Assembly: GCA_030019255.1 (NCBI GenBank)
Contig: JASEFK010000003.1
Span: forward strand, 207,095-271,094
Length of the DNA stretch: 64,000 bases
Source of the DNA: Actinomycetota bacterium
Lineage (GTDB): Bacteria > Actinomycetota > Geothermincolia > Geothermincolales > RBG-13-55-18
Direction: 5' to 3'
Numbering within the stretch: position 1 is the first letter of the stretch; every line of letters begins with the position of its first letter. The position numbers and the translations under genes are program-made. The notes beneath the pieces are model-generated. The model searched no databases. It was not told the DNA's origin and saw only the letters and a list, made by a program, of their open reading frames with translations. This document shows positions 13,080 through 20,481 of the stretch, piece after piece.

Positions 13080-14288
13080 TCAGGGGCGCAGGAGCTGGAT
13101 GGTCACCTCCGAACCGGGCTCCAGGCGCCCCACTTCCTCCGGCAGGACGGCCAGGGCGTTGCCCAGGACCATGGACTTCAGTATCCCGCTCCCCTGGGGC
13201 CCGGTGGGGCGCGCGTGCCAGCGACCGTCCCTCCACTCCGCGATCACCCGGATGAACTCCGTCCGCCCCGTTCGCCTCCCGATGGGGGCATCCAGGACGG
13301 CGGTGACCTGGGGACGGAAGAGGGAGGAGCGTCCCATCATCTTGAGCAGGGCGGGACGGACGAACTGCTCGAAGGAGACCATCACCGAAACGGGGTTCCC
13401 GGGGAGGCCGAAGAGGGGCTTTCCCCCGATGTGCCCGAAGGCCTGGGGCTTTCCCGGGCGCATGGCCACCTTCCAGAAGTTCATCTCGCCCAGCTTTCCC
13501 AGGACGTCCTTGACCATGTCGTAATCTCCCACCGAGACCCCACCGCTGGTGACGAAGAGGTCCACGCGGTCCAGGTTGTCCATGATGGTCCGCTCCAGGA
13601 GGGCGGCGTCGTCGCGCACGATGCCCAGGCGCAGCGGTTCCCCGCCCGCCTCCCGGACCATGCCATAGACCGTGTAGCTATTGGAGTCCCGTATCTTTCC
13701 GGGAGGGAGCTCCGCCTCCACCTCCACCAGCTCGTCCCCGGTGGAGATGATGCCCACCACGGCGCGCCGGAAGCAGCGCACCCGGGCGTAACCCAGGGAG
13801 GCCAGCATCCCCAGCTCGGCGGGACCCACCGGGGTCCCGGCGGCGATGACCCTCTCCCCGGCCCGCACGTCCTCCCCCGCGCGGCGCACGTTGTCTCCCC
13901 TGGAAACTCCTTCCACCACCAGCACCCGCCCCTCCTCGGCGCGGGTCACCTCCACCGGGACCACGGCGTCCGCTCCCGGCGGTAGGGGTGCCCCGGTCAT
14001 GATGCGCAGGGCCTGGCCGGGTCCCACGGCCACTTCCGCTGTGTACCCCGCCGGGAGGTCCCCGAGCACCTCCAGCTCCACCGGGCTGTCCTCCGCTGCC
14101 CCGCTCACGTCCTCCGCCCGCACGGCGTAACCGTCCATGGCCGAGTTGTCGAACGGGGGGATGTCGTTGACCGCCACCACGTCATCGGCCAGGGTCATCC
14201 CCAGCGCCTCCAGCAGGGGGACCTCCACCGGCTCCAGGGGCCGTATGGTCTCCAGTACCCTACGCCTGGCTTCCTCCACGCTCAGCAT
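13080..14288 (-). CDS. moeA: molybdopterin molybdenumtransferase
   Basis: MoeA inserts molybdate (or tungstate) into adenylylated molybdopterin. The 402-residue protein begins MLSVEEARRRVLETI and shows DIPPFDNSAMDGYAVR, IMTGAPLPPGADAVV, ISTGDELV, DSNSY and FVTSGGVSVGDYD, then GLPGNPVS before the C-terminal domain, all classic MoeA motifs. Start set at the ATG after AGGAGGAGAGACAAG; an upstream in-frame ATG adds 13 residues without a better site. It is last in the minus-strand Mo/W gene group, 82 bases after a TupA-like gene, consistent with use of the imported oxyanion. Confidence 0.94.
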   Translation of the reverse strand: MLSVEEARRRVLETIRPLEPVEVPLLEALGMTLADDVVAVNDIPPFDNSAMDGYAVRAEDVSGAAEDSPVELEVLGDLPAGYTAEVAVGPGQALRIMTGAPLPPGADAVVPVEVTRAEEGRVLVVEGVSRGDNVRRAGEDVRAGERVIAAGTPVGPAELGMLASLGYARVRCFRRAVVGIISTGDELVEVEAELPPGKIRDSNSYTVYGMVREAGGEPLRLGIVRDDAALLERTIMDNLDRVDLFVTSGGVSVGDYDMVKDVLGKLGEMNFWKVAMRPGKPQAFGHIGGKPLFGLPGNPVSVMVSFEQFVRPALLKMMGRSSLFRPQVTAVLDAPIGRRTGRTEFIRVIAEWRDGRWHARPTGPQGSGILKSMVLGNALAVLPEEVGRLEPGSEVTIQLLRP

Positions 14289-14370
14289 CTTGTCTCTCCT
14301 CCTACCCTGCACCTCGATCCCGGCCACCCGGGGCCGCCTTTTTCCTCACAGCGCAGGAGAATACCCTGCT

Positions 14371-15189
14371 TCACTCCGGCGGAGACCAGTCGCCTTTTTC
14401 CATATATTTCCTGGCCTCCTCCGAGAGCAGGTAATCGGCGAAACACCGCGCACCCTCGGCGTCAGTGTCCGGGTAAACCAGGGTTCCGACGGCCATTACG
14501 TGGTAGGGATTGGGAAGCTCCCCGTTCATCCCGAAGAGGGGCTCTGACTCCAGGTCCGGGGCCAGCCTGAGGAAGGTGCTGCTGTCCGCCAGGGTGTAGG
14601 CACCCTCCCGGGAAGCCTGGGCCAGCACCTGCTCCATGTCCCCCTCTACCACCCTGACCCAGTCGGTCGTCTCTCCCGCTTGCATGCCACTCAGGAGAAA
14701 GAAGATCCTGGACGCGGTCCCCGATTCGTCCGACCGCACCAAAAAAACCCTTCCGGAGGTGGCTATCCTCTCCAAGGCCTCCTCCGGGCTCCCCGCCTCC
14801 CTCACCCCGGCGGGATCGTCTGGCGGTCCCACCAGGAGGTAGGAATCGCGCATCACCTCCAGCCTGAATTCCAGGTAGCCGTTCCTCTCCAGGCGTTCCT
14901 CCTCCTCGGGGACGTGCAGGAGCAAAAGGTCGCACTCCCCGTGGACGGCCATCTCCAGGCCCTCGGCGTCGGAAACCGTTAAAAGCTCCACCCGGCTCCC
15001 GGTGCGCGCCTGGAAATCCTCAATCCAGGCCTCCAGGATGCCGAATCCCTGCAGGTCCGAGGTGGCCGCCAGGACCAGCGGTCGCCCGCCGTCCCCCTCG
15101 CAACCCCCGAGGGCGAGGGAGGAGAGGACGAGCAAAGCCGGCAGGAGTGCCGCCAATAAATGCGACTGCCGGAATCCTTTCCTCTTCAT
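14371..15189 (-). CDS. divergent TupA-like substrate-binding lipoprotein
   Basis: A 272-residue extracytoplasmic binding protein with a lipobox (SLALGGCEG) after a basic, hydrophobic signal. It aligns along its length with the TupA at 17680-18525: LDAWI-like start, GLEMAVHGECDLLLLH, SYLLVGPPDDPAGV, VRSDESGTAS, EGAYTLADSSTFL. The oxyanion-binding TTTS of TupA is here AATSD, so the ligand may differ from tungstate. It is separated from tupC by 522 bases and sits directly before moeA. It could be a second Mo/W receptor using the same permease, or a sensor. It has no permease or ATPase of its own here. Confidence 0.8.
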   Translation of the reverse strand: MKRKGFRQSHLLAALLPALLVLSSLALGGCEGDGGRPLVLAATSDLQGFGILEAWIEDFQARTGSRVELLTVSDAEGLEMAVHGECDLLLLHVPEEEERLERNGYLEFRLEVMRDSYLLVGPPDDPAGVREAGSPEEALERIATSGRVFLVRSDESGTASRIFFLLSGMQAGETTDWVRVVEGDMEQVLAQASREGAYTLADSSTFLRLAPDLESEPLFGMNGELPNPYHVMAVGTLVYPDTDAEGARCFADYLLSEEARKYMEKGDWSPPE

Positions 15190-15711: not shown

Positions 15712-16815
15712 CTACTCCCGTGCCCCGCTGAAGGGCATTATATGGAGGGAGGTGGCCTTCAGGGCGGCGGTGAAAGCCTTCCCCGGGGCGATGCCCATCT
15801 CCTCCCGGGAAGGGCGGGTCACGTGGGCGGTGAGGGGGAACCCGCAGTCCAGGCGCACCTTCACCATCCCTCCCATCTCCCGCACCTCCAGGACCCGGGC
15901 GGAAAGCCGGTTGCGCGCCGAACCGGCCTCCTCCCCGGGGACGTGGAGGACCACCTCCTCGGGATGCACCAGGACCTTCACCCGGGAGCCTACCGGGAAA
16001 TCCCCCAGGGCCAGCAGCTCCCCCTCCCCCACCCGAATGCGCACCATCTCTCCCTTCCCAGCCACCACCTCGCCTTCCAGGAGGTTCTCCGCCCCCAGGA
16101 AGGAGGCCACCTCCTCGGAAACCGGTCGGGCGAAGACCTCCCCCGGCTTCCCCACCTGTTGGAGCGTTCCGCCTATGAGCACCGCCAGGCGGTCGGCGAC
16201 CTCCAGGACCTCGTGGTAGTCGTGGGAGACGTAGACGGCGGTGACCCCCGCCTCCCGCACCAGGAGGGGGAGGAGGCGCAGCATCTCCCGGCGGGTGGGA
16301 AGGTCCAGGTTGGAGAGGGGCTCGTCCAGGAGCAGCAGGCGGGGCCTGAGGATGAGGGCCCGGCCCAGGGCCACCTTCTGGGCCTCCCCGCCGGAGAGGG
16401 TGCGCACGTCCCGGGAGGCCAAGTGCTCCAGGCCCAGGCGCTCCAGCATCTCCCGCACACGTGCTTTTCTCTCCGCTCGGGGCATCCCCCTGACCTTCAG
16501 CCCGTAGGCCAGGTTGTCCTCCACGGTGCGACGGAAGAGGATGGGGTCCTGGAAGATCATGGTCATCTGCGCCGCCAGCTTCCGCCGCTCCCCGCGCTCC
16601 AGCGTGGAGAGCTGCTTCCCGTCCCAGAAAACGATCTCCCCCCTGGTAGGTCTTTCCAGCAGGTTGATGATGCGCAGGAGGGTGCTCTTCCCCGAGCCGT
16701 TGGGCCCCACCACGGCGGTGACCGACCCCTCCTCTATGTCCAGCTCTCCCACCTGGAGCACGCGCCGTCCGTCGTACTCCCGCTCGACGCCGCGCAGGGA
16801 CAGGAGGGGAGTCAT
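15712..16815 (-). CDS. tupC: tungstate ABC transporter ATP-binding protein
   Basis: A 367-residue ATPase: Walker A VVGPNGSGKST, Q-loop MIFQDPILF, signature LSGGEAQKVALGRAL, Walker B LLLLDEPLSNLD and switch His in VSHDYHE. The last about 125 residues form a TOBE/Mop-type oxyanion-binding extension (GAENLLEGEVV onward), as in Mo/W transporters, often used for feedback. Start is the ATG whose bases overlap the tupB stop. Expected complex: two TupC, two TupB and the lipoprotein TupA at the membrane. Confidence 0.9.
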   Translation of the reverse strand: MTPLLSLRGVEREYDGRRVLQVGELDIEEGSVTAVVGPNGSGKSTLLRIINLLERPTRGEIVFWDGKQLSTLERGERRKLAAQMTMIFQDPILFRRTVEDNLAYGLKVRGMPRAERKARVREMLERLGLEHLASRDVRTLSGGEAQKVALGRALILRPRLLLLDEPLSNLDLPTRREMLRLLPLLVREAGVTAVYVSHDYHEVLEVADRLAVLIGGTLQQVGKPGEVFARPVSEEVASFLGAENLLEGEVVAGKGEMVRIRVGEGELLALGDFPVGSRVKVLVHPEEVVLHVPGEEAGSARNRLSARVLEVREMGGMVKVRLDCGFPLTAHVTRPSREEMGIAPGKAFTAALKATSLHIMPFSGARE

Positions 16816-17579
16816 GCCACCTCCCTCCCCCTCAGCCTGGAGAGGATGCCCCTGGCTACCCTGCCCGGACCGTGGAAGGCCGTGCCCTGCTGGAGGAGGG
16901 TCATGAACCACACCAGTAGGAAGGTGATGCCCAGGAGGATGACCCCCAGGGCGATGGCCCGCACGCTGTCGCCGCGACCGACCTCCAGCACGGTGGCCGT
17001 GGTCAGGGTGCGAGTGTAGGGCTGGCCGTTGAGGAGCAGGTTGCCCCCCACCATCATGGCCGCCCCCACCTCGGAGATGACCCCCCCGAAACCGGCGATG
17101 ACCGCGGCCAGGAGGGAAAGGCGGTTCTCCCGCAGCAGGGTCAGGGCGGCCCTCATCTCCCCGGCCCCCAGGGACCTGGCCTGAAGCCTTATCCGCGGGT
17201 CGGCGTTCTGCAGCGCGGCCATGGTTATCCCGGCGATGAGGGGCATGGCCAGCACCACCTCGGCCAGGATGATGGCCTTGGGGGTATACAGCCACTCCAG
17301 GAAACCCAGTGGTCCCCTTCTTTTGAGGAAGAGGTAGACGAAGAGCCCCACCACCACCGGGGGGAGGCCCATTCCGGCGTTGACCAGGGTGACCAGGAGC
17401 CGGCGGCCCCGGAAACGGTAGAGGGCCAGGACCGACCCGAGGGGGATACCCAGCAGCATGCCGACCAGGGTGGCCAGGGCGCACACGTAGAGGGTGAAGA
17501 GGGTGATCCTCATGACATAGGGGTCCAGCCTGGCGATGAGCCTGACGGCCTCCACCAATCCCTGCCATATCTCTCCCAT
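16812..17579 (-). CDS. tupB: tungstate ABC transporter permease
   Basis: A 255-residue inner-membrane permease with about five or six hydrophobic segments (first at about 25-50). The EAA-type loop for ATPase contact is SLGAGEMRAALTLLRENRLSLL; GFGGVISEVGAAMMVGGN is typical of TupB/CysT-like permeases. It starts at ATG, 100 bases after tupA, and overlaps tupC by four bases, indicating one transcript tupA-tupB-tupC. Confidence 0.92.
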   Translation of the reverse strand: MGEIWQGLVEAVRLIARLDPYVMRITLFTLYVCALATLVGMLLGIPLGSVLALYRFRGRRLLVTLVNAGMGLPPVVVGLFVYLFLKRRGPLGFLEWLYTPKAIILAEVVLAMPLIAGITMAALQNADPRIRLQARSLGAGEMRAALTLLRENRLSLLAAVIAGFGGVISEVGAAMMVGGNLLLNGQPYTRTLTTATVLEVGRGDSVRAIALGVILLGITFLLVWFMTLLQQGTAFHGPGRVARGILSRLRGREVA

Positions 17580-17679: not shown

Positions 17680-18525
17680 CTACAGGGCGTCGGGGAAGAA
17701 AAGAGGTTCCCCGTACTCCTTCACGCCGAAGGTCTCCAGCAATTCCTGCGCTTTCCTCCCGGTGACGAAATCGGAGAAGGCCCGCGCCCCGGCCTGGTTC
17801 ACGTCCGGCCACCTCTCCGGGTTGACCTCCATGACATGATAATAGTTGAAAAGAAGGGGGTCACCTTCCAGGAGCACGACCAGGTCGAGGTCCTTCTTCA
17901 GCTTGAGAAAGGTCCCCCTGTCGGTCAAAGTATAGGCCTTCTCCTGGGAAACGATGCGCAAGGTGTCTCCCATGCCCTTCCCGCTCTCCATGTACCAGGG
18001 GCCTGAAGGAGCCAGGCCGGCCTCTTCCCACAGGCTCAGCTCCTTGGTATGGGTTCCGGAATTGTCTCCCCGGGACACGAATTTGGCTCCCGCCTTAACG
18101 ATCTTCTGCATGGCATCCGACGCTTTCACACTTGACCCCACGCCGGCCGGGTCCTCGGGGGGACCCACGATAACGAAATCGTTATGCATCACCGCCCGAC
18201 GGTTGACGGCATAGCCTTCCTCCACCATCTTTTCCTCGTCCCCGGGGCTGTGCACCAGCATGACATCGCACTCACCGTTGCGGCCCATCTCCATGGCCTT
18301 GCCGCTTCCCACGGCGATAACCTTGACGGAGTAAGGGTATTCCTCCTCGAACATGGGTATCCAGGCGTCGAGCAACCCAGAGTCCTGGGTGCTGGTGGTG
18401 GTGGCCAGGATGAGCTCGGCTCTCGGCGCCTCTTCAGCGGCCCGGTTGCCGCATCCCGTGATCCATACCGTCACCGCCAGGGCCAGGACCAGGGCCAACA
18501 TGAAGGTTTTCCTCGGCCTGCGCAT
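17680..18525 (-). CDS. tupA: tungstate-binding lipoprotein
   Basis: A 281-residue binding protein with signal and lipobox (VTVWITGCGN) and the TupA ligand signature LATTTSTQDSGLLDAW directly after it. Further family motifs are VGSGKAMEMGRNGECDVMLVHSP, MHNDFVIVGPPEDPAG, FVSRGDNSGTHTKE and KAYTLTDRGTFL. Start is the ATG after GGAAGCAGAAG; a longer frame runs back into the leader RNA but lacks a start site. It is expressed behind the leader aptamer and terminator at 18781-18924, so synthesis probably responds to Mo/W cofactor or a related ligand. Confidence 0.92.
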   Translation of the reverse strand: MRRPRKTFMLALVLALAVTVWITGCGNRAAEEAPRAELILATTTSTQDSGLLDAWIPMFEEEYPYSVKVIAVGSGKAMEMGRNGECDVMLVHSPGDEEKMVEEGYAVNRRAVMHNDFVIVGPPEDPAGVGSSVKASDAMQKIVKAGAKFVSRGDNSGTHTKELSLWEEAGLAPSGPWYMESGKGMGDTLRIVSQEKAYTLTDRGTFLKLKKDLDLVVLLEGDPLLFNYYHVMEVNPERWPDVNQAGARAFSDFVTGRKAQELLETFGVKEYGEPLFFPDAL

Positions 18526-18780: not shown

Positions 18781-18803
18781 AAAAAGCCCGCTCGGAGGCG
18801 GGC
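18781..18803 (-). terminator. intrinsic terminator in the tupA leader
   Basis: On the minus strand GCCCGC-CUCCGA-GCGGGC forms a 6-bp GC stem followed by UUUUU. It lies 25 bases after the aptamer and about 255 bases before the tupA start, the place of a riboswitch expression platform. Its loop carries CCUCCGAG, a copy of the 5' strand of aptamer helix P1. Confidence 0.8.
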
Positions 18804-18828
18804 GTACCGGCAGTAAGCCGTTTTCGCC

Positions 18829-18924
18829 ACCTCCTTTCCAAGCACGGGAGGCATGGAGGTTTCCCCCCACACCCTATCGGCTCATATCCATAGCCCTACG
18901 GCCTTAGGAACGGAGCTCGGAGGT
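18829..18924 (-). promoter_or_regulatory. riboswitch-like aptamer upstream of tupA (Moco/Tuco class suspected)
   Basis: A 96-base leader element, homologous to 20133-20229. Read on the minus strand it is closed by P1 (ACCUCC / GGAGGU). It holds the exact 11-nt GAAA-tetraloop receptor CCUAAG-GCC-loop-GGC-UAUGG, a CUAUGG/CCgAUAG helix and a GAAA-capped hairpin (UGGGGG-GAAA-CCUCCA). A conserved CCUCCCGUGCUUGGAAAGGAG segment ends it. An intrinsic terminator follows. Helices are supported by paired differences between the two copies. Position before tungstate-transport genes suggests a molybdenum/tungsten-cofactor riboswitch; that family assignment is inferred from context and general architecture, not from a covariance-model match. 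Confidence 0.75.
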
Positions 18925-18964
18925 TTTCGGTTCTACACCAATGTCAAGGTACCGGGCAAGAACC

Positions 18965-19780
18965 TCAGAAACAGCCCAGCGAGCATTTCACTATCTTGAT
19001 GTTGAGGGCGTTGGCCGCCTTTCCCACCTCCAAGGGCGGCACACCCAGCTCCTCGGCCAGCTTCAGGGCCACGGCGCAGGGGATGCGCCCCTCCTCCGCC
19101 TTCTCCTTCACCGCTTGCAGGACCCTCTCCTCCACGTCCGGAGACATGAGCTCACCTCCCAGTTTTCCCGCGGTCCTCGAGAGCACCATTTCCCAGGCCC
19201 TTTCCCTTCCCAGCTCGGATACCATCACCAGCTTGGCCCGGGGATTGTGCTCCTTTATCCTCCTCTCCAACCCCAGGGCTTCCTCCCCGGGAATATCTTC
19301 CATCCCGTTGACCACCACGGTATGCGCCTTCTCCAGGGCCTCGAAGGCCGAGGGCTTGAAGTCGTCGAACCCGGTGGACATGACGAAGACGGCGTAGTCC
19401 GGCTCCAGGTGGCGCAGAACGCTGTTCCCTTCCACGATGACCACCGGGGCATCCAGGCGGGAGAGGGCTTCCCGGAGGTCCTGGGCCAGGGTCTCCGGGG
19501 TGGATCTCACCCACAGGACCGGGAAGGCTCCCGCCGCCCGCAACCTGGCGGTATCCGTGTCCGGCCGTTCCGGCTCCTCCCCCTCCTCCAGGATGACCTC
19601 TCCGGGCGGCCTCCTTTCGTGCACGGACACCTTCATGGCCGCGCAGGAAGGACAGCGCGAGGCGATGAAGGCAGCCAGGGAGCTCTTTCCCACGTCCTTG
19701 CCGGAGCCGGAGATGGTGATTATCTTCCTATCTTTTCCACGAAGCTCGTCATTTCGCCCCCGGGGGTCGGACGCCTCCAT
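18965..19780 (-). CDS. MobB-like P-loop NTPase with C-terminal helix-turn-helix-like domain
   Basis: A 271-residue protein with an N-terminal P-loop IITISGSGKDVGKSS (about 20-34) and downstream VVIVEGNSVL and VVNGMEDIP, in the style of MobB and related small NTPases that assist molybdopterin-nucleotide synthesis. The last about 60 residues (GRIPCAVALKLAEELGVPP to IKIVKCSLGCF) look like a small winged-helix or HTH module ending in two cysteines. Start is the only in-frame ATG before the P-loop; AAGGGG abuts it, so the true start is uncertain. It is preceded by the second copy of the leader aptamer, which ties it to Mo/W metabolism. Exact role unproven. Confidence 0.65.
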   Translation of the reverse strand: MEASDPRGRNDELRGKDRKIITISGSGKDVGKSSLAAFIASRCPSCAAMKVSVHERRPPGEVILEEGEEPERPDTDTARLRAAGAFPVLWVRSTPETLAQDLREALSRLDAPVVIVEGNSVLRHLEPDYAVFVMSTGFDDFKPSAFEALEKAHTVVVNGMEDIPGEEALGLERRIKEHNPRAKLVMVSELGRERAWEMVLSRTAGKLGGELMSPDVEERVLQAVKEKAEEGRIPCAVALKLAEELGVPPLEVGKAANALNIKIVKCSLGCF

Positions 19781-20085
19781 CCCCTTCCCAGGGGTACGAG
19801 AAATCTCGCCCTTCCTCCCATCTCCCCTCCCGCGGTCCCGGTCCGAAGCCGCGTAGGAAGAACCACCCTCCCTGGTAGTGACCACTCCAGGGATGCGGCC
19901 ATGGGCTTGGACTATCCCGACCGATGCCGCACGGCAGGAATCGTCCGTGCAGGAAGACATCATTTCAGCGTGGAGTTCATGATCCTCGATAATCCTGTAA
20001 GGGTACGCACAGATGGAACCACCAGTGGGACGGGAAAGGGTTGGGGGACCAGTCTCCCTTCGGTCCAATGCGGACGTAGGCTCCG

Positions 20086-20112
20086 AAAAAAGCCCGTCCG
20101 GAGAGGACGGGC
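20086..20112 (-). terminator. intrinsic terminator in the MobB-like gene leader
   Basis: On the minus strand GCCCGUCC-UCUCC-GGACGGGC forms a perfect 8-bp stem followed by UUUUUU. It sits 20 bases after the second aptamer copy. The stem-loop contains CUCUCCG, identical to the 5' strand of that aptamer's P1 helix, as expected for mutually exclusive folding. Confidence 0.85.
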
Positions 20113-20132
20113 GTACATCACCACTCATTTCC

Positions 20133-20229
20133 CTCTCCTTTCCAAGCACGGGAGGCACCGGCGTTTCCCCCGGCACCCTATCGGTCCAGCCCCATAGCCT
20201 CCGGGCCTTAGGCGACTGGACTCGGAGAG
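20133..20229 (-). promoter_or_regulatory. riboswitch-like aptamer upstream of the MobB-like gene (second copy)
   Basis: A 97-base element homologous to 18829-18924. P1 is CUCUCC / GGAGAG, a compensated change from ACCUCC / GGAGGU in the other copy. The tetraloop receptor CCUAAG...UAUGG is identical, its stem loop differs (CGGA for GUAG), and the GAAA hairpin has a different paired stem (CCGG / CCGG). The conserved 3' block CCUCCCGUGCUUGGAAAGGAG is unchanged. An 8-bp terminator follows at once. The same leader on two Mo/W operons in one window is strong evidence that this is a ligand-responsive regulatory RNA. Confidence 0.78.
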
Positions 20230-20481
20230 CGCCTGTATCGGGTGTCAAACCGCAAAGGCGAGGGTAATTATAGACCCGCGGTGGGAAGGAGAGCAAGTCG
20301 CGTAGCGCCCTCGACCCTAACCATCCGCGCCGATGCCGCCGAAAATATACCGTGATGACGAACGACGTTCGAACGGATGTATAATGTCCACGGCTTCCGG
20401 TGGAGGGGAACGACGGCCGGGACGCGGGCCCGGCGAGGTGCCCGGGGCTTGGCCGCCGCCGGCAGGAAGGGGGCTCCGGTC

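Follow-up and report, generated by a model that had tools for sequence, protein, structure and literature searches.

The question raised by this locus is how two copies of one structured leader RNA, each followed by an intrinsic terminator, could control the genes beside them when one of the terminators lies inside the coding sequence itself. The window (the whole stretch of DNA that was analysed, 64,000 nucleotides of an Actinomycetota genome) carries both copies on its minus strand, copy B in front of tungstate-transport genes (tupABC) and copy A in front of a gene for a MobB-like protein. The reading that we favor, with a probability of roughly 0.7, is that both are OFF switches of the Moco/Tuco class without helix P3, and that copy A has its terminator in the coding sequence and is subject to ribosome-coupled antitermination.

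The class of the two RNAs can be settled from their sequence. Both elements are matched by the Rfam model RF01055 (Moco RNA; Molybdenum/Tungsten riboswitch aptamer) over its full length (positions 1-135 of 135; E of about 1e-15), far above the gathering threshold of 36 bits, and they are the only two copies in the 2.9-Mb genome. A first-pass annotation of the same DNA had described the elements, their P1 differences, the receptor, the GAAA-capped hairpin and the terminators, all of which are present where it placed them. It had also suggested the Moco/Tuco class and named RF01055 as the model to compare, a suggestion borne out by the matches and by the absence of P3, as in the proposed Tuco subtype. 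The parts of the two aptamers are as follows.

20119-20239, minus strand: copy A, P3-less Moco/Tuco (RF01055) aptamer upstream of the MobB-like gene (Rfam, 73.3 bits)
20224-20229, minus strand: 5' strand of P1 in copy A, CUCUCC
20133-20138, minus strand: 3' strand of P1 in copy A, GGAGAG, within the Shine-Dalgarno-like AGGAGAGG (20139-20132); kept in 13 family members
20207-20212, minus strand: 5' half of the tetraloop receptor in copy A, CCUAAG, a feature of the class
20196-20192 and 20167-20164, minus strand: 3' half of the receptor in copy A, UAUGG, and its GAAA loop
18815-18934, minus strand: copy B, P3-less Moco/Tuco (RF01055) aptamer upstream of tupABC (Rfam, 73.4 bits)
18919-18924 and 18834-18829, minus strand: 5' and 3' strands of P1 in copy B, ACCUCC and GGAGGU
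18903-18908, minus strand: 5' half of the tetraloop receptor in copy B, CCUAAG
18892-18888 and 18863-18860, minus strand: 3' half of the receptor in copy B, UAUGG, and its GAAA loop

In both copies the GAAA loop caps P4 and the 11-nt receptor sits in a bulge of P2, while CGAUAGGG follows directly after P2, with no P3 stem. The docked tetraloop and receptor to which the first-pass annotation had drawn attention are thus present, but they are a published feature of the Moco RNA class (PMC2408646) and no sign of novelty. The P3-less "Tuco" subtype described in the sections of that report on the class shares the core sequence, P1, P2, P4, P5 and the GAAA tetraloop with its receptor; its members likewise precede tungstate-transport and Moco genes, occur in several copies per locus and use terminator or Shine-Dalgarno platforms. 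By sequence, the two RNAs add to a known class and, as a riboswitch find, are ordinary. A promoter scan found no sigma-70-type site. P2 of copy B, the TupA leader (18919-18888 of the window), contains a 3x3 internal loop, CUC CGU UCC / GGA UAU GAG, which is identical in four genomes of the family (the window and G006:C15, G010:C60 and G014:C162); the same four leaders differ from one another in P4 and at the tip of P2, and GAA/GAG occupies the loop site in other families of the class.

The genes downstream of copy B are Mo/W transport and cofactor genes. They run in the order tupA, tupB, tupC, a second TupA-like protein and moeA.

17680-18525, minus strand: TupA-like tungstate-binding protein (NF041772, 218 bits, E 1e-64; equivalog cut-off 400 bits)
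16812-17579, minus strand: TupB-like permease (NF038017, 237 bits; NF041773, 161 bits)
15712-16815, minus strand: TupC/WtpC-like ATP-binding protein (ABC_tran and TOBE; NF040840, 281 bits)
14371-15189, minus strand: second TupA-like binding protein (PF12849, 51.7 bits)
13080-14327, minus strand: MoeA-like molybdopterin molybdotransferase (PF03453, PF00994, PF03454)

Because its score falls short of the equivalog cut-off, the first of these is called TupA-like and not a certified TupA. The second TupA-like protein (14371-15189), between tupC and moeA, is diverged and has counterparts in most family members. The genome also encodes seven homologs of the AFOR tungstoenzymes beside this TupABC-type system, and no ModA was found in it. 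Across 99 relatives, counted with kinship ignored, a TupA-like protein was present in 44/44 genomes with RF01055 and in 4/55 without it, and the corresponding figures for ModA were 4/44 and 39/55.

The identity of the ligand is a less direct matter. The class is split by helix P3, and Regulski et al. 2008 (PMC2408646), in the part of the report that deals with this split, proposed that P3-less members sense the tungsten cofactor. In the relatives, RF01055 RNAs that contain P3 precede TupA in ten genomes, and P3-less RNAs precede ModA (G014, G028) and a MOT1-type molybdate transporter (G028), so the rule that no P3 means tungsten cofactor is not strict. The P3-less RNAs that go against it are L061 (G028:C55:13652-13770), L084 (G028:C170:3088-3206) and L072 (G014:C118:10099-10218), before the MOT1-type transporter or ModA. 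AFOR was present in 32/36 genomes with a P3-less RNA versus 3/8 with only P3-containing ones (Fisher p 0.005, with kinship ignored and with P3 status corrected by hand after automatic pattern calls), and its presence leans in the direction that the proposal predicts. We infer the tungsten cofactor as the probable ligand of copies A and B; that they respond instead to the molybdenum cofactor, or to either one, seems to us rather unlikely. The loose mapping of P3 status to tungsten and molybdenum genes in the phylum speaks for molybdenum, as does the E. coli Moco RNA, which, in the account of it given in PMC2408646, responds to Moco and not to Tuco. Against this stand the TupABC-type system and the seven AFORs of a genome in which ModA was not found. 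The 2008 proposal appears worth retesting in this group, where P3 status does not sort cleanly with tungsten and molybdenum transport genes and RF01055 tracks the TupA-like transporter in every genome that has it.

Several other arrangements of these RNAs were seen in the relatives. At L052 (G076:C13:14031-14364), L085 (G020:C20:10928-11326) and L068 (G049:C35:15931-16240), TupA is preceded by two RF01055 RNAs in tandem, one with P3 and one without; should the P3 proposal be right, such pairs would be switches with two inputs, the Mo and W cofactors. P3-less RNAs also precede the small subunit of [NiFe] hydrogenase, an enzyme with neither a Mo nor a W cofactor, at L037 (G013:C15:41479-41766), L106 (G014:C187) and L078 (G030:C74:4475-4592), those of G013 being a tandem pair about 490 nt upstream. 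Divergent P3-less pairs lie between two genes at L046 (G006:C8), L054 (G008:C29), L039 (G014:C127), L076 (G015:C102), L082 (G019:C3), L060 (G024:C103), L073 (G027:C246) and L067 (G028:C172), and the genes that flank the G006 pair encode Oxidored_molyb-domain proteins (PF00174).

Downstream of each copy stand a GC hairpin and a U-tract, and in each the 3' strand of P1 could pair over 8 bp with the terminator's 5' half, a pairing that excludes P1.

20092-20112, minus strand: intrinsic terminator hairpin of copy A, GCCCGUCC-UCUCC-GGACGGGC, then U6 (20091-20086); paired changes in relatives
20100-20107, minus strand: candidate antiterminator of copy A, UCCUCUCC, able to pair with GGAGAGGG of the P1 3' strand (20138-20131)
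18786-18803, minus strand: intrinsic terminator of copy B, GCCCGC-CUCCGA-GCGGGC, then U5 (18785-18781)
18794-18801, minus strand: candidate antiterminator of copy B, CCGCCUCC, able to pair with GGAGGUGG of the P1 3' strand (18834-18827)

We infer from this layout that the switches turn expression off. Binding of the cofactor would favor P1 and hide its 3' strand, making it unavailable for pairing with the terminator, and transcription would stop; with no cofactor bound, the strand would pair with the terminator's 5' half and let transcription go on. Copy B would thus be a conventional leader terminator that curbs tungstate uptake through tupABC when the cofactor is abundant. The complementarity on which this scheme depends was assessed in a sample of 100 elements from the relatives and the window, to which about 75 more were added by a scan of genome contigs. 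In the 104 leaders that had a terminator, pairing of the GGAAAGG block or P1 3' strand to the leader's own terminator, over its 5' half and loop, was stronger than to shuffled copies (mean z of -1.0; 27 leaders at p<=0.05 versus about 5 expected), a group figure that overstates the evidence since related leaders are not independent. For the individual copies the test gave p 0.01 for copy B and p 0.22 for copy A, so that copy B and the group show significant complementarity, and the antiterminator of copy A taken by itself is unsupported, pairing no better than shuffled sequence of the same composition. Free folds of both copies include the pairing between the P1 3' strand and the terminator, and forcing P1 to form costs 2.5 kcal/mol in copy A and 6.5 kcal/mol in copy B; this is what an OFF switch would need, with the energy of ligand binding paying for P1 and freeing the terminator. 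A swap of terminators between the copies was uninformative as a test of covariation, the P1 strand of copy B giving -18.6 with terminator A and -18.7 with its own.

The peculiarity of copy A lies in where its terminator stands relative to the gene.

18965-20128, minus strand: MobB-like P-loop gene from the start codon beside P1, 387 codons, Walker A near 19700 (open frame; in-frame starts in 13/13; SIMIBI fold)

The P1 3' strand and its flanks (AGGAGAGG) are followed by GAA and then by ATG 20128, from which the frame crosses the hairpin and the U-tract, enters the P-loop protein and ends at 18965. The hairpin begins 16 nt downstream of the A of this ATG, and the terminator spans about codons 6-15, reading RPSSPDGLFS. 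The first-pass description of a terminator followed by a gene therefore holds for copy B but not for copy A, in which the frame starts before the terminator. In each of the 13 family members with the leader (G000, G001, G002, G004 and G006-G014), a start codon in frame with MobB stands 12-19 nt downstream of the beginning of the GGAAAGG block, and in the roughly 600 codons between start and Walker A in these 13 the MobB frame contains no stop, compared with 18 and 17 stops in the other two frames. In six of the genomes (G001, G008, G010, G011, G012 and G014) this start codon is the sole in-frame ATG, GTG or TTG upstream of Walker A, so a start at a standard codon after the hairpin is impossible in them and the hairpin must be translated. 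The window gene has further possible in-frame starts after the terminator (ATG 19963, 19960 and 19780), and in this genome, taken by itself, the case for a start at 20128 consequently rests on the relatives and on a count of 0 stops versus 4 and 5. Frames that stay open through the terminator occur in 40/104 leaders, the MobB ones included; outside the MobB leaders, most of these are short, do not match the frame of the gene or can be put down to a start further on, and none of them is claimed here.

The hairpin itself appears to be maintained as a structure. Across the family 96.6% of its pairs can form, with changes on both sides at 4/8 pairs, and in G010 a change from U-A to C-G alters two residues (S to P and D to G), which suggests that pairing there outranks the peptide. 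G009 and G013 have a degraded U-tract, so not every member depends on the terminator, and a GC hairpin with a U-run is kept in 11/13. Since the frame is open through the terminator and a Shine-Dalgarno sequence lies in P1, this one leader probably joins masking of the start site with an in-gene terminator. In the passages of PMC2408646 on expression platforms, terminator and ribosome-binding-site platforms are separate types; copy A, unlike those, appears to carry both, with the terminator in the coding sequence. We regard the in-gene terminator as a new variant of expression platform that is well supported as an arrangement of sequence and unproven as a mechanism.

The mechanism that we propose for copy A gives the P1 3' strand a second role as the Shine-Dalgarno sequence of the start codon a few nucleotides downstream. 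With ligand, P1 would hide this sequence and block translation, leaving the terminator free to form; without it, ribosomes starting at ATG 20128 would run over the terminator and keep the hairpin open. The front of an initiating ribosome reaches approximately the position at which the hairpin of copy A starts. In E. coli, according to PMC4824070, an intrinsic terminator is repressed when translation comes close to it, and with the hairpin 16 nt past the start, a ribosome should likewise hold the terminator of copy A open when ligand is absent.

It could be argued instead that the hairpin of copy A is mere coding sequence and no terminator, and that control is purely translational through the Shine-Dalgarno sequence in P1, which is how E. 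coli moaA is described in the section of PMC2408646 devoted to it. That mode is an established one, and G009 and G013 keep the frame despite their degraded U-tracts. However, a GC hairpin and U-run are kept in 11/13 members, with two-sided pair changes that alter the peptide, and the same hairpin stands outside the gene in outgroups; we consider this explanation unlikely. The moaA riboswitch resembles copy A in having its ribosome-binding site in P1; it differs in that it has P3, responds to Moco and not Tuco and, in that section of the report, is described with no terminator.

A layout closer to that of copy A is known from the SAM-II riboswitch of Sinorhizobium meliloti metA (PMC9373788), which carries a Shine-Dalgarno sequence directly followed by a start codon (AUG1), then a Rho-independent terminator and an in-frame AUG2 from which translation begins. 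By analogy, the start codon beside P1 in copy A would go unused, the terminator would lie in the leader and the riboswitch Shine-Dalgarno would feed a later in-frame start. This layout has been shown experimentally for metA, and the window gene does offer later in-frame ATG codons, so that a start of this kind may apply to the window genome; we nevertheless think it improbable for the family, since six relatives have no ATG, GTG or TTG between the terminator and Walker A and would need a non-standard ATC or ATA codon, and in 13/13 the MobB frame has no stop ahead of Walker A. Copy A also departs from metA, in which no antiterminator was found, in that its P1 3' strand can pair with the hairpin. 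Searches of the open-access literature brought up no further riboswitch whose terminator is translated, metA being the nearest case. That the elements form a new riboswitch class, as the first-pass annotation had allowed, or an RNA unrelated to Moco RNA is refuted by full-length RF01055 matches at twice the threshold, and the chance left to it is negligible.

The outgroups suggest how the arrangement of copy A, as an in-gene terminator, may have arisen. In three genomes of the same order (G015, G016 and G017) a similar hairpin precedes an ordinary start codon (3/3), a layout with the hairpin before the gene that looks ancestral. In the protein tree the in-gene group forms one side of a 99/99 branch, with G004 and G009 on long branches and the root not fixed, which is consistent with a single change. 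We read this as a start that moved upstream to the P1 Shine-Dalgarno, after which the terminator would have become coding. The fuller account, in which one upstream shift of the start captured the terminator, the P1 3' strand serves as aptamer, Shine-Dalgarno and antiterminator, and the ribosome keeps the terminator open, seems to us about evenly balanced between right and wrong. If it is true, a single ligand event would shut the gene down at both levels, translation and transcription, at once. The 13 genomes with a translated terminator and the three outgroups make a natural before-and-after pair for asking whether the role of antiterminator in a riboswitch can be taken by a ribosome.

The protein encoded downstream of copy A has no Pfam or NCBIfam assignment, and MobB is its best weak match. 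The label "MobB-like" in the first-pass annotation was reasonable but is weak: the window protein scores 13.2 bits against PF03205 (MobB), under the cut-off of 26.6, and the best ortholog reaches an E of 0.009 in Pfam, below the cut-off, and 0.0013 with TIGR00176. The protein has a Walker A motif (G-x4-GKS), and its AlphaFold model (pLDDT 91) gave cDPG synthetase (8e-7) and HypB (1.5e-6) as the best Foldseek matches; it is predicted to be a SIMIBI-type P-loop NTPase, nearest to HypB and cDPG synthetase. The P-loop protein (18965-19741 of the window), which belongs to no curated family, also has a helical C-terminal domain and ends in an invariant CSLGCF.
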